From Candidatus Fonsibacter sp. (GTDB taxonomy: Bacteria; Pseudomonadota; Alphaproteobacteria; Pelagibacterales; Pelagibacteraceae): a stretch of 40,797 nt of DNA. Below, piece by piece: positions 1 through 27,009 of the stretch. The number at the start of each line of letters is the position of its first letter. Position 1 is the first letter of the stretch. A program made the translations under genes and the position numbers. The DNA lies in contig VERQ01000004.1 in NCBI GenBank assembly GCA_018882565.1, positions 1 through 40,797 on the forward strand. Reading direction: 5' to 3'. A model generated the notes under the pieces. That model was not told the origin of the DNA and ran no database searches. It saw only the letters and a program-made list of their open reading frames with translations.

Positions 1-913
1 GCGTTTGTTGTTTTTTAGCAAGCGAGTATTGAGAAAAATTTTTTAAAAATGGATAAAATACTTTTTCAATTTTTGAGTGTTTATGCAAAAAATTAGCAAT
101 CTCAAAAGCAGTATTAGACTGCGCCTCTACTCTAATTTTAATAGTTTCTAAACCTTTTAGCAAAACCCAAGCATTGAATGGACTAATGGAAGGACCTGTG
201 TGTCTTAAGTAAGGTTTTAAAATATTTTCTTTAAATTTTGTCGAAGATAGTATTGCTCCACCTAAAACTCTTCCTTGTCCATCGATATGTTTTGTTCCAG
301 AATAAACAACAATATCGGCACCTAACAAAACTGGTTTTTGCAGCACAGGACTTGCAATAATATTATCTACAACAGTTTTAATTTTATATTTTCTTGCGAT
401 ATTGCAAACGGCTTTAATATCAATTAATTCTAAAAGTGGATTTGAAGGAGTTTCAAAGAAAAAAATCTTTGTATTTTTTTTAACAGCCTTTTTCCATTCG
501 TTTATATTTTTTCCATCTACAAATGTCACTTCAATCTCATATCTAGGCAGAATATTTTTGATAATTTCTTTGCAAGATCCAAATAAAGCAGAAGATGAAA
601 CTAAATGATCTCCAGCCTTTAATTGACACATTAATGAAAAGAAAACAGCAGCCATTCCGCTTGCTGTTGCAAAACAGTCCTCGGAACCATCGAGCAACGC
701 TAATCTTTTTTCGAATGTTTCAATAGTAGGATTTGAGTAACGAGTATACTGAAAACCTTTTTTAGTACCTTTAAAAATAGCTTCAGCTTGTTCAGCGCTA
801 TCGTAAACAAATCCTGATGTTAGAAACAACGCTTCAGAAGTCTCATTAAACTGACTTCTGTTTAATCCTCCTCGGATTAAATTAGTGTTAGTTCCAAGTT
901 TTTTTTTTTTCAT
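1..913 (-). CDS. metZ: O-succinylhomoserine sulfhydrylase, 3' part missing
   Basis: This is a PLP-dependent Cys/Met-metabolism transsulfuration enzyme that should make homocysteine from an activated homoserine and sulfide. The gene starts at 913 with ATG and stays open to the window edge, giving about 304 residues of an expected ~390. Visible family marks are YTRYSNPT near residue 55, the ATASGMAAV segment that follows, and SGTKHIDGQGRVLGG, whose Lys should carry PLP. SGTKHIDGQGR fits MetZ-type sulfhydrylases better than classic MetB cystathionine gamma-synthases. The start overlaps the metE stop as ATGA, so the gene is translationally coupled as the last seen member of metF-metE-metZ. It is therefore probably under the upstream SAM-II riboswitch. 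MetY or MetB activity cannot be excluded without the C-terminus. Confidence 0.87.
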   Translation of the reverse strand, partial: MKKKKLGTNTNLIRGGLNRSQFNETSEALFLTSGFVYDSAEQAEAIFKGTKKGFQYTRYSNPTIETFEKRLALLDGSEDCFATASGMAAVFFSLMCQLKAGDHLVSSSALFGSCKEIIKNILPRYEIEVTFVDGKNINEWKKAVKKNTKIFFFETPSNPLLELIDIKAVCNIARKYKIKTVVDNIIASPVLQKPVLLGADIVVYSGTKHIDGQGRVLGGAILSSTKFKENILKPYLRHTGPSISPFNAWVLLKGLETIKIRVEAQSNTAFEIANFLHKHSKIEKVFYPFLKNFSQYSLAKKQQT

Positions 914-3189
914 TTCTCGGTTCTTAATTCCTTCGCTGCTTGCACCATAGTTTCAAGTGCACTTATTGTTTCAGGCCAGCCTCTAGTTTTAAGTCCGCAA
1001 TCTGGATTTACCCAAATTCTTTTCTTATCAATTAACTTAGAAGCTTTTTGAATAAGTTCTTTCATCTCATTTTTATTTGGAACCCTAGGAGAATGAATGT
1101 CATAAACACCTGGTCCTACTTCATTTGGATATTTGAACTTTTCAAATGTTTTTAATAATTCCATTCTAGATCTAGATGTTTCTATGGAGATAACATCAGC
1201 ATCTAAAGCAGCAATAGCATCAATAATATCTTCAAATTCAGCGTAACACATATGTGTGTGAATTTGAGTTTCATCTTTTGCAACAGCGGCAGAAATTTGG
1301 AAAGCTTTAACAGCCCAATCTAAATATTGCTTCCAATCGCTTTTCTTCAGAGGCAAACCTTCTCTTAAAGCTGGCTCATCAATCTGAATCATTTTAATTC
1401 CATTGTTCTCAAGATCTTCAACCTCATCTCTTATTGCAAAAGCAATTTGTAACGCCGTATCTTTTCTTGGTTGATCATCTCTAACAAAAGACCATTGTAA
1501 AATTGTTATTGGACCAGTTAACATTCCTTTAACAATTTTCTTAGTTTGGTCTTGAGCAAATTTTGACCATTGAACCGTCATAGATTCTGGACGAGAAACA
1601 TCTCCAAAAATAATTGGGGGTTTTACGCATCGTGAACCATAACTTTGTACCCAACCACTAGATGTAAATGTAAATCCTTTAAGTTGCTCACCAAAGTATT
1701 CAACCATGTCATTTCTCTCAAATTCTCCATGAACAATAACGTCGATATCTATTTGTTCTTGTTTTTTAATAGCATCGATTGTTTTTGTTTTAAGAAAATC
1801 CTCATATTCTTTTAAGCTTAATTCATTTTTCTTAAATTTAGCTCTGGCATTTCTTACATCAGATGTTTGAGGAAAAGATCCAATAGTTGTTGTTGGATAT
1901 AAAGGTAATTTAAATACCTTAGTTTGTATTTCAGATCTTTTAACAAAGTTAGATTTTCTATTTAAAATCTGCGTTGTAATATTTTTAGCTCTTTGTTTAA
2001 CTTTATCATCATGAATTAATTCAGATGTTGCTCTGCTTGTGATATCTTTTTTATTTTCATCTAAGTAATTTTTGATTTCATTGTTACCTTTGTTTAATGA
2101 AATTTTAATATGATTAAGTTCAATAAGTTTTTGCTTAGAAAATGACAGCCACTTTCTAATTTTTTCAGGAACCTTAGTCTCCAAGCCTAAGTCATAAGGG
2201 GTATGCAGTAATGGACAAGAAGAAGAGATCCATAAGTTTTTAATATTTTTTGAATACTCTGTTACTTGCTCAATTTTTTTATTAACATCAGATTTCCAAA
2301 TATTTCTTCCGTCAATAATTCCAATAGAAATTGTTTTATTAGTATTTTTTAAAGAATCTATATTTGAGATTTTTCCGCGAATTAAATCAAAATGAACACC
2401 ATCTACATCACTTTCTAAAATTTCTTTTTCAACTTCAGAATCTAGTTTTTCAAAGTAAGTTGTTAAAATAATTTTAGACGAACCAGCAAATTTCTTTAAT
2501 TGGTTTAAAGTTTTTTTGATTAGTTTAGTAAAATCAGCATTTTGGTTTTTTACCAAAATAGGTTCATCAATTTGAATCCACTCAGCACCCTTTTTATTTA
2601 AACCAGATAAAATCTCAGCATAAACTGGAAGTAAATTATCTAATAAATCAATGCTTTTGAAAGATTCATCTGTAGTTTTACCTAGGCTTAAAAAAGTAAG
2701 AGGACCCAGAATAATTGGTTTGGTATTAAAGCCTAATTTTTTTGCCTCATCAAATTCATCAAATGGTTTGTTTGAACTCAACTTAAATTTTTGATTTTTT
2801 GAAAATTCTGGCACTAAGTAATGGTAGTTAGTGTCAAACCATTTTGTCATTTCAAGCGCAGGTACATCTAAATCTTTTGTTTGAGAGCCACGCGCCATTG
2901 CAAAATAAGTTTTAAAAGAAATTTTATCGTCTTTATGTTTGTATCTTTCAGGAATTGAACCTACCAAACAAATTGTATCTAGAACTTGATCGTAAAAAGA
3001 AAAATCATTTGAACAAATATAATCAACACCATTGTCTTTTTGTGTTTGCCAATTATTTTTTTTTAATTCACTAGCGCACTTAAGCAAATCATTCTCAGAA
3101 ATTTCAGATTTCCAATATTTTTCAAGAGCATTCTTTAATTCTCTTTTTGGACCTATTCTCGGGTAGCCAATGCAGTTTATTTTTATCAT
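910..3189 (-). CDS. metE: Cobalamin-independent methionine synthase
   Basis: MetE transfers the methyl group of 5-methyl-tetrahydropteroyl-glutamate to homocysteine without B12. The product has 759 residues, the normal length for a two-barrel MetE. The N-terminal barrel opens with GYPRIGPKRELK. The C-terminal barrel begins near TTTIGSFPQT and carries VHGEFERNDMVEYFGEQ, WVQSYGSRCVKPP and IDEPALREGLPL. Zinc ligands are present: His646 and Cys648 in THMCYAEF, and Cys731 in NPDCGLKTRGW, matching His641, Cys643 and Cys726 of the E. coli enzyme. The ATG start overlaps the metF stop by one base (TAATG) and the TGA stop overlaps the metZ start. MetF supplies its methyl donor and MetZ its homocysteine, so the three genes form a complete terminal pathway. 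Confidence 0.97.
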   Translation of the reverse strand: MIKINCIGYPRIGPKRELKNALEKYWKSEISENDLLKCASELKKNNWQTQKDNGVDYICSNDFSFYDQVLDTICLVGSIPERYKHKDDKISFKTYFAMARGSQTKDLDVPALEMTKWFDTNYHYLVPEFSKNQKFKLSSNKPFDEFDEAKKLGFNTKPIILGPLTFLSLGKTTDESFKSIDLLDNLLPVYAEILSGLNKKGAEWIQIDEPILVKNQNADFTKLIKKTLNQLKKFAGSSKIILTTYFEKLDSEVEKEILESDVDGVHFDLIRGKISNIDSLKNTNKTISIGIIDGRNIWKSDVNKKIEQVTEYSKNIKNLWISSSCPLLHTPYDLGLETKVPEKIRKWLSFSKQKLIELNHIKISLNKGNNEIKNYLDENKKDITSRATSELIHDDKVKQRAKNITTQILNRKSNFVKRSEIQTKVFKLPLYPTTTIGSFPQTSDVRNARAKFKKNELSLKEYEDFLKTKTIDAIKKQEQIDIDVIVHGEFERNDMVEYFGEQLKGFTFTSSGWVQSYGSRCVKPPIIFGDVSRPESMTVQWSKFAQDQTKKIVKGMLTGPITILQWSFVRDDQPRKDTALQIAFAIRDEVEDLENNGIKMIQIDEPALREGLPLKKSDWKQYLDWAVKAFQISAAVAKDETQIHTHMCYAEFEDIIDAIAALDADVISIETSRSRMELLKTFEKFKYPNEVGPGVYDIHSPRVPNKNEMKELIQKASKLIDKKRIWVNPDCGLKTRGWPETISALETMVQAAKELRTEK

Positions 3190-4094
3190 TATATATATAT
3201 CTCCTTTTGGTTAAAAAATTGGTTTATGTTTTTATTGTATTCTTTTTGCTCTATTTTTTTTTCGTTTAATAAATTTTTACAAACTGCATATGTTAATTCA
3301 TATTTATTAAGAGTGTAAAAATGAAATTCGTTAACACCTTCAGCTTGTAGTTTATTTACCAAGTTACTAGCTATATCTATGCCAACAAATTTTTCTTCTT
3401 CTTTTAAATTAGAGAATTTATCTTCAATCCATTTAGGAATAATGGTTCCGCACTTTAAACTAAAATCTTTTACTTTCTTGAAGTTATCAATAGGTAAAAT
3501 TCCAGGAATAATAGGTGCTTTAATACCTAGTGCGATTGATTTGTCTCTAAATCTTAAAAATTTTTCGTGATCAAAGAAAAATTGTGTTATGATTTTATCA
3601 GCGCCTTGATCTACTTTAATTTTTAAATTTTCTAAATCTTCGTTTTCATTTTTAGATTCCGGGTGTTTGTCTGGGTAACCAGCTACTGCAATTTCAAAAT
3701 TACCTAATTTTTTTAAACCTCTAACCATATCGGCTGCATTGATATAGCCTTTCTCATGGGGTTTATATTTTGAATCTTTTTTTCTTACATCACCACGTAA
3801 TGCTACAATTTTATTAATTCCATTATTTAACCAATCAAGAGCAATATTGTTTATTTCTTCTTTGCTCATATCAACGCAAGTAAGATGACCAGCAACTGGC
3901 GTGTTTGAATTTTTTTTTATTTTTTTTACTAAATAATCACTTTTATCTCTTGCTCCACCTCCAGCACCAAAAGTCACAGATACAAACTTTGGATTAAACT
4001 CTTCAAGTTTAATAAAGCTTCTCCATAGAGTTTCATCAGCTGTTTGATCCTTGGCTGGAAAGAACTCAAAACTAATATTTAAATCTTTGCTCAC
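3189..4094 (-). CDS. metF: Methylenetetrahydrofolate reductase
   Basis: The enzyme reduces 5,10-methylene-THF to 5-methyl-THF with FAD and NAD(P)H. The 301-residue length is typical of bacterial MetF. Motifs in order are SFEFFPAK at the N-terminus, VTFGAGGG, HLTCVD, ALRGD, TQFFFD and IPGILPI. The start at 4094 is GTG; an in-frame TGA two codons upstream excludes a longer form, and no strong Shine-Dalgarno is visible. It is the first gene of metF-metE-metZ and lies directly behind a SAM-II-type riboswitch with an intrinsic terminator, so the whole operon should be shut off when S-adenosylmethionine is plentiful. Confidence 0.95.
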   Translation of the reverse strand: MSKDLNISFEFFPAKDQTADETLWRSFIKLEEFNPKFVSVTFGAGGGARDKSDYLVKKIKKNSNTPVAGHLTCVDMSKEEINNIALDWLNNGINKIVALRGDVRKKDSKYKPHEKGYINAADMVRGLKKLGNFEIAVAGYPDKHPESKNENEDLENLKIKVDQGADKIITQFFFDHEKFLRFRDKSIALGIKAPIIPGILPIDNFKKVKDFSLKCGTIIPKWIEDKFSNLKEEEKFVGIDIASNLVNKLQAEGVNEFHFYTLNKYELTYAVCKNLLNEKKIEQKEYNKNINQFFNQKEIYI

Positions 4095-4130
4095 AATTCA
4101 TTCTAAATAAAGGTTTTTTTGGAATTTTTC

Positions 4131-4181
4131 GAAAAAAACCACCAGGCAAAGCGGCGGTTATAATTGCATCGCTTTAGCTGG
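4131..4181 (-). terminator. Intrinsic terminator with competing antiterminator
   Basis: On the minus strand, AACCGCC (4159-4153) pairs with GGTGGTT (4143-4137) and runs into seven Ts (4138-4132), a rho-independent terminator just after the aptamer. A mutually exclusive fold pairs CCAG..AAAGCG (4181-4170) with CGCTTT..CTGG (4153-4142). It uses the conserved GCUAAAG strand of the aptamer and the 3' half of the terminator. SAM binding would hold GCUAAAG in the pseudoknot and let the terminator form; without SAM the antiterminator would form and metF would be transcribed. Confidence 0.75.
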
Positions 4182-4220
4182 ATTTATATAGCGCCCGCAA
4201 TTTGAAATAACTCGGCGCAG
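4171..4220 (-). promoter_or_regulatory. SAM-II-type riboswitch aptamer, metFEZ leader
   Basis: Read on the minus strand, the leader has GCGCC (4218-4214) pairing with GGCGC (4195-4191) as P1. The loop contains UUAUUU and UUGCG. After P1 come AUAAAU and then CCAGCUAAAG (4181-4172). The spacing and the AUAAAU..AGCUAAA signature are those of the SAM-II/SAM-V pseudoknot clan, known on methionine genes of alphaproteobacteria and marine bacteria. The downstream metF-metE-metZ genes fit a SAM sensor exactly. I favour SAM-II over SAM-V, but only a covariance-model score would separate them firmly. Confidence 0.85.
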
Positions 4221-4225
4221 AAAAT

Positions 4226-4254
4226 TAAATAACTTTATTAAGATAATTAGTCAA
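4226..4254 (-). promoter_or_regulatory. Candidate sigma-70-type promoter for metFEZ
   Basis: Minus strand TTGACT (4254-4249) is a near-perfect -35 box, followed after 17 bases by TATTTA (4231-4226), a weak -10. Initiation would fall next to base 4219, the first base of the SAM-II P1 stem, which supports the assignment. It overlaps the upstream region of the divergent lysE-like gene. Confidence 0.5.
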
Positions 4255-4273
4255 TATAGATCTAGATTTATCA

Positions 4274-4891
4274 ATGATACCAAACAATTACTTACTATTT
4301 GTTCAGTTAGTTACCATACTTTTTATCACTCCTGGACCACAAAGAATTCTAATTATTACTAATTCAATGAATTATGGTTTTCCAAAAAGTTTATGGACGG
4401 GCTTAGGAGATGTTTCCGCCAATGCAATTCAAATGATATGCGCAACATTTGGAGTTTATGCGCTAATGAAACCTCATCCGCAAATTTTAGATATTTTCAA
4501 ATGGATTGGTGGATTATATTTAATTTATTTAGCAATAAAGTTTTTAGGAAGAAAAACGAGCGTTACAATAGATAAAACATTTAATACTCGATCAGCATTT
4601 GATTTATTTAAAGATGGATTTATTTCTGCTTTGTTCAGTCCGGGTGCTATAGTTTTTTTTGTAGTTATGTTTCCTACTTTTTTAGATCCTAATAATAATT
4701 TTATAATTCATTTTACTATTTTAATGACAACTCATGTATTTTTAGATTTTTTCTTTCTGACAATTTATGCTGGTGTTTCAAGTAGAATTGCAATTTTTCT
4801 AAAAAATTATCCAAATTTAATAAGTAGATTATCCGGATGCGCTTTGTTATTTCTAGCTTATAGAATTTTAAGCACCAAAATTAATTTATGA
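4274..4891 (+). CDS. LysE/RhtB-family amino acid exporter
   Basis: A 205-residue inner-membrane protein of the LysE/RhtB family, which export amino acids such as lysine, threonine or homoserine. The first membrane segment carries the family's proline-glycine motif (TPGPQ near residue 20), followed by the amphipathic SLWTGLGDVSANAIQM stretch and about five further hydrophobic helices. Length is normal. Its stop overlaps the azlC start as ATGA, so the two are coupled. The substrate cannot be read from sequence. Divergence from a SAM-controlled methionine operon and co-transcription with azlCD suggest methionine, homoserine or branched-chain amino acids, as inference. Confidence 0.85.
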   Translation: MIPNNYLLFVQLVTILFITPGPQRILIITNSMNYGFPKSLWTGLGDVSANAIQMICATFGVYALMKPHPQILDIFKWIGGLYLIYLAIKFLGRKTSVTIDKTFNTRSAFDLFKDGFISALFSPGAIVFFVVMFPTFLDPNNNFIIHFTILMTTHVFLDFFFLTIYAGVSSRIAIFLKNYPNLISRLSGCALLFLAYRILSTKINL

Positions 4892-26832: not shown

Positions 26833-26840
26833 TGGATTCG

Positions 26841-27009
26841 TAGGGAAGAGACCTCTCGTAGGCACCGAAGGAGCAACAGCCCAGGAAACTCTCAGGTAAA
26901 AGGACCTTACAATTATATAACTCTGGAAAGAAAGTTTAAAACTTCACCGACGGAGCAACACTCTCAGGTAAACATACAGATGGGCCGCTTAAAACAGGAG
27001 TTATATAAT
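26841..27009 (+). promoter_or_regulatory. Tandem glycine riboswitch
   Basis: Two glycine aptamers lie in tandem ahead of gcvT. The first (about 26841-26910) has GGAAGAGACC, CACCGAAGGAGCAA, CTCTCAGGTAAAAGGACC. The second (about 26918-26990) has CTCTGGAAAGA, CACCGACGGAGCAA, CTCTCAGGTAAA and CAGATGGG. Classical P1 of the second aptamer pairs 26922-26925 with 26977-26980. The linker plus P1 strand ATTATATAACTC (26912-26923) is also perfectly complementary to GAGTTATATAAT (26998-27009), which includes part of the AGGAG ribosome site of gcvT. That gives a likely translational switch. Confidence 0.95.

Follow-up and report, generated by a model that had tools for sequence, protein, structure and literature searches.

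The closest described counterpart of the element studied here lies upstream of bhmT in the marine relative Ca. Pelagibacter ubique HTCC1062 (SAR11), where a SAM-II riboswitch is followed in tandem by a SAM-V riboswitch (PMC2704228, PMC9481103, PMC11508383). In this tandem, SAM-II is predicted to terminate transcription and SAM-V to block translation (PMC9481103, PMC5069961); a KD for SAM of 1.2 uM is quoted for the SAM-II in the part of PMC5069961 that cites Poiata 2009. In the refolded full-length tandem, the linker is reported to keep SAM-II from responding to SAM, and anti-linker oligonucleotides restore this response (PMC11508383). A more distant parallel is the SAM-II upstream of metZ in Sinorhizobium meliloti, in which an aptamer also precedes a terminator and termination is predicted on SAM binding; its gene order and lineage differ from those described below (PMC9373788).

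Here we analyze a 40,797-nt stretch of Candidatus Fonsibacter sp. DNA (contig VERQ01000004.1, positions 1 to 40,797; the window), in which a metF-metE-metZ operon carries such an element in its leader. We assign a probability of about 0.93 to the reading of this element as a SAM-II riboswitch whose expression platform attenuates transcription and which serves as an OFF switch for the operon.

The metF operon and its leader

The operon proposed in an earlier note on this DNA is borne out by profile scores. On the minus strand, metF is the first gene (3189..4094; TIGR00676, 310.7 bits, above the cut-off) and starts with GUG here and AUG in relatives. It is followed by metE, encoding the B12-independent methionine synthase (910..3189; TIGR01371, 1096.7 bits), and by a metZ-like O-succinylhomoserine sulfhydrylase gene (2..913; TIGR01325, 423.8 bits), whose score falls below the full-length cut-off because the gene is cut by the contig end. 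A divergent gene on the plus strand (4274-4888) resembles homoserine/threonine efflux proteins of the LysE/RhtB type, below curated cut-offs; homoserine is a methionine precursor.

The whole element reads on the minus strand from 4219 to 4132, with P1, a pseudoknot-competent core, an antiterminator, and a terminator in that order. Just upstream is a putative promoter (4226..4254), with TTGACT at 4254-4249 and TATTTA at 4231-4226 separated by a 17-nt spacer; it would place the transcription start at about 4219, where P1 begins. TTGACT and its spacing are kept in most leaders of the same genus, and the HTCC1062 bhmT SAM-II likewise has TTGACA-N17 upstream of it; a consensus promoter scan of the leader made no call.

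The aptamer and its pseudoknot

P1 is formed by GCGCC at 4218-4214 and GGCGC at 4195-4191 (4191..4218), and encloses the third strand, GAGUU (4213-4209), and the descending strand of P2 (4205-4197). In the P2 pseudoknot (4169..4205), UUGC at 4200-4197 pairs with GC(U)AA at 4178-4174, and the helix is extended by the outer pairs C4204-G4170 and U4205-A4169. The core strand GCUAAAG (4178-4172) is part of the longer strand that the pseudoknot uses, GCUAAAGCGA (4178-4169). The linker between P1 and P2 is 12 nt long, has no P3 hairpin, and contains AUAAAU (4182..4187), which is conserved with some variation. The P1 and AUAAAU..GCUAAA core that the earlier note had described are thus present, and they are kept in 16 distinct orthologous metF leaders from 17 genomes, as is every other element of the module.

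We built a covariance model of P1 and the terminator, R1, from orthologous metF leaders and aligned 72 copies of the module, 71 of which score 78-109 bits. Across 70 distinct sequences, 98.8% of cells are paired in P1, where three pairs show compensatory changes on both sides. The same fraction (98.8%) is paired in P2, which was not used in fitting the alignment. The outer P2 pair U4205-A4169 is UA in 48, AU in 9, and GC in 8 of the 70 sequences, with 17 double changes; its covariation score was reached by none of 500 shuffles. UUGC is invariant in 71/71 copies and its partner GC(U)AA in 72/72. We also mapped the SAM-contact positions from SAM-II and SAM-V structures (PMC6061858) onto the alignment: the uridines facing the sulfonium (U4210 and U4199), U4176, and A4173 are all kept, and the two sulfonium-facing uridines are invariant across the family copies.

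These data bear on the idea that the leader holds a plain intrinsic terminator or attenuator that senses no ligand and resembles SAM-II by chance. Such a reading would fit the weak Rfam score (below) and the folding energy of the single sequence, which is unremarkable (z of -0.4 to -1.1). It is hard to reconcile with the P2 covariation and invariant ligand-contact bases in 70 sequences, with an architecture nearly identical to that of a SAM-II reported to bind SAM, and with the next gene being a methionine gene in 29/29 loci where it was read (including bhmT and metY in relatives), and we consider it highly improbable. SAM is the predicted ligand of the metF copy.

Assignment to the SAM-II class

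Searching the whole window against Rfam at the gathering score recovers only a glycine riboswitch, whose aptamer lies at 26833-26917 on the plus strand (59.9 bits). At the metF leader, RF00521 (SAM_alpha, the SAM-II model) scores 12.6 bits against a cut-off of 36, with an E-value of 3.4 over all families. The published SAR11 examples also fall short of this cut-off: the HTCC1062 bhmT SAM-II scores 15.5 bits and the HTCC1062 metX SAM-II 26.7 bits. Orthologous metF leaders reach up to 29.8 bits, and no copy in the 22 genomes searched reaches the cut-off. Because the bhmT SAM-II itself scores so low, we attribute the low metF score to a gap in the Rfam model; a cut-off that also excludes the published SAR11 SAM-IIs is not diagnostic here. 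The Rfam check proposed in the earlier note yields neither SAM-II nor SAM-V above the cut-off, but this does not count against the aptamer in substance. The window element shares with the RF00521 consensus its fold and the conserved GCUAAA and UUGC, and departs from it in the outer P2 pairs, which are UC/GA in place of a longer, G/C-rich helix.

Since SAM-V is common in the family and has a pseudoknot core in common with SAM-II (PMC6061858), we also weighed whether the leader could be a SAM-V riboswitch that acts on translation through occlusion of the ribosome-binding site. The RF01826 (SAM_V) fold is a related pseudoknot with related ligand-contact bases, yet SAM-V carries a P3 hairpin and sequesters a Shine-Dalgarno sequence. 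The window element has neither: in 4190-4094, P1 and P2 are not separated by a P3 hairpin, and GCUAAA is not followed by a Shine-Dalgarno. No RF01826 match was found at E up to 10 in 3900-4420, and the 37 nt from the U tract to the start codon are too short for a SAM-V. Nor was SAM-V called in any of the metF loci scanned, in contrast to most of the bhmT/metY-type loci. A SAM-V here is scarcely credible. We place the element in the SAM-II class because it has the outer 3' P2 pairing element, which is described as lacking in SAM-V (PMC2704228), together with a 12-nt linker without P3. Spermidine-sensing SAM variants were dropped as candidates because they derive from SAM-I (PMC10853860).

Position 4211 and the ligand

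One base of the third strand departs from the classic SAM-II sequence: position 4211 is G rather than U. This change raises the question of whether the SAM-II-type aptamer has drifted in its ligand preference, for example toward SAH or another compound of the methionine cycle. The family copies are split about equally at this position (37 G and 34 U, n=71; column 9 of alignment A2), and since MetF makes methyl-THF, another folate- or methionine-related ligand is conceivable. On the other hand, the uridines beside the SAM sulfonium are invariant, and both the G and U forms are found before bhmT/metY genes. The HTCC1062 bhmT SAM-V reads G at what we take, by our own reading, to be the equivalent position (U8 of SAM-V), and it binds SAM at 0.5 uM without binding SAH (PMC6061858). 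We consider a drifted ligand very unlikely, and rejected G4211 as a sign of one: no strongly linked position was found elsewhere in the alignment, and the same base occurs at the apparent equivalent position of a SAM-V that binds SAM. The G/U split adjoins the SAM site in SAR11 SAM-II copies and could conceivably tune affinity.

Antiterminator and terminator

Two further structures, mutually exclusive, can form. The antiterminator (4142..4181) pairs CCAGCUAAAGCG at 4181-4170 with CGCUUUGCCUGG at 4153-4142. The earlier note had placed it at these positions; we find that 11 of the 12 pair, so that the helix is real but imperfect, with one C-C mismatch and one G-U pair. The intrinsic terminator (4132..4159) pairs AACCGCC at 4159-4153 with GGUGGUU at 4143-4137, including one G-U pair, and runs into the U tract at 4138-4132. 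Both the stem and the T7 run that had been proposed are present, but two of the seven T lie within the stem, leaving U5 beyond it. A terminator scan gave two overlapping matches at the leader, compared to 0.2 expected in shuffles.

The terminator is paired in 99.4% of cells across 70 sequences, and P1 and the terminator together in 99.1%, with four pairs changed on both sides. The antiterminator is paired in 90.2% of cells in register, compared to 20-55% when the strands are slid. The covariation sought across relatives is thus evident for P1 and the outer P2 pair, weak in the terminator, and slight in the antiterminator (4 double changes), the last because one of its strands is fixed by the aptamer. 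Complementarity of the antiterminator and the terminator is kept in relatives. Pairing between the aptamer strand and the terminator strand is stronger in the window than in 4961 of 5000 dinucleotide-type shuffles and is equalled by only 39. Taken on its own, the window sequence thus offers modest evidence, its folding z-scores being uninformative; conservation in relatives is overwhelming and decides the matter.

We then compared folds with the aptamer strand free or blocked in 17 sequences, comprising the 16 metF leaders and the HTCC1062 bhmT leader. From the 3' strand of P2 onward, every one of them folds most stably as the antiterminator (-12.2 to -15.6 kcal/mol); when GCUAAAGCGA is held unpaired in silico, the terminator forms instead (-7.1 to -12.4 kcal/mol). 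The antiterminator, which uses the aptamer strand, and the terminator exclude one another in these folds. The terminator loop is conserved (1.59 bits, compared to 0.41 bits in the spacer), as expected if the loop is an antiterminator strand. Because the terminator forms when GCUAAAGCGA is withheld and because its loop is conserved, high SAM should favor termination. Comparative evidence and the in silico block thus support the central proposal of the earlier note, in which a SAM-II-type aptamer is joined to an antiterminator and a terminator that exclude each other, and all three structures lie where it had put them on the minus strand.

The HTCC1062 bhmT leader, read from a genome (G036) that we take to be HTCC1062 since its SAM-V elements lie at the positions given in PMC2704228, is built in the same way and is homologous to the window element. 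It reads TGCGCTGATTTAAGTTAAATTGCAGAGCGCGTTACAAATCCTGCTAAAGCGACGCTTCAACCACCGCTTTAGACAGGTGGTTTTTTTTT, then SAM-V, and scores 78 bits with R1. It has the same P1, the same UUGC/GCUAAAGCG pseudoknot strands, an antiterminator of GCUAAAGCG with CGCUUUAGC, and a CCACC/GGUGG terminator followed by a U tract. The two differ in one outer antiterminator pair (U-A there, A-U in the window), in the G in place of U at 4211, and in context: the window copy stands alone, without SAM-V, on metF-metE-metZ.

A second hairpin, GGU7...A7CC (4112..4140, minus strand), overlaps the 3' arm and U tract of the terminator and is possible only in read-through transcripts. It folds in leaders of the same genus, with arms matched 7/7, 5/5, and 4/4, and is weak or absent in more distant leaders. 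We mention as an improbable further idea that the Fonsibacter metF attenuator gained this hairpin (4140-4112), which ends near the start codon, as a second layer of control. The hairpin might then hold the antiterminated state in place or adjust metF translation, in lieu of the translational SAM-V found behind the module at bhmT.

Distribution across the family

An R1 search of 397 genomes of the family gave a match at E <= 0.01 in 374, although some of these genomes are represented solely by a weaker, metX-type SAM-II match. The module occurs before metF, bhmT, and metY across the family (88-109 bits); the downstream gene was read at 29 loci, and each time it was a methionine gene. Identity of the module to the window copy holds at about 74-80% even in genomes whose MetF proteins share only 61-66%. 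In the metF loci scanned, the module is clearly used solo, without SAM-V. Phage records searched with the leader gave no match.

Several other copies were seen along the way. In a genome of the same genus (G011, locus L160, 130-221) SAM-V comes immediately after the module, which shows that this genus has the tandem form too. A divergent copy (G017, locus L172, 197-276; 43.9 bits) has an altered terminator and core (GCUAAAAUGA). The genome of the window itself has a second, canonical SAM-II directly upstream of metW (G000:C59:2560-2630, minus strand; about 1501-1571 of locus L001), which at 27.3 bits is still below the Rfam cut-off.

The assembly comprises 0.98 Mb in 101 contigs. The nearest named metF records come from Ca. 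Fonsibacter sp. Baikal-deep-G36 and from SCGC AAA028-C07, AAA280-P20, AAA280-B11, and AAA028-D10. We take Baikal-deep-G36 and the SCGC single cells to be members of LD12, the freshwater SAR11, and the genome analyzed here belongs with this Fonsibacter/LD12 group.

Discussion

In the mechanism that we propose, abundant SAM would stabilize the P1/P2 pseudoknot and so occupy GCUAAAGCGA at 4178-4169. The antiterminator would then be left without its partner, the 4159-4137 hairpin would form, and RNA polymerase would halt in the U tract. With little SAM present, the GCUAAAGCGA strand would instead pair with CGCUUUGCCUGG, which would cover the loop-side base of the terminator 5' arm, the loop, and the start of the 3' arm, and the operon would be transcribed. 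This direction of switching is a prediction for the metF copy. The behavior of the refolded HTCC1062 tandem would agree with a stable antiterminator, one that SAM has to outpace while the RNA is being made; given that the linker blocks SAM-II in the refolded RNA, we propose that switching must occur co-transcriptionally.

The earlier note had singled out a transcriptional design as unusual. This does not hold, since transcription control is the usual SAM-II mode (PMC2258182; PMC6061858) and a SAM-II with a terminator has already been described in SAR11 (PMC9481103, PMC5069961). What is modestly new is a solo SAM-II, without SAM-V, on metF-metE-metZ; otherwise it is the same switch as that of HTCC1062 bhmT. 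In the literature searched, we found no description of a SAM-II on metF-metE in SAR11; PMC10030771 notes metE in LD12 and IIIa without mention of a switch.

With these findings, the range of a known SAR11 switch comes to include the B12-independent methionine operon in freshwater relatives. Because the Rfam cut-off misses the SAR11 form, automatic annotation under-counts SAM-II in SAR11, which ranks among the most abundant groups of bacteria. Found on metF, bhmT, and metY, with or without SAM-V behind it, this one module provides a natural series for the reuse of a switch.
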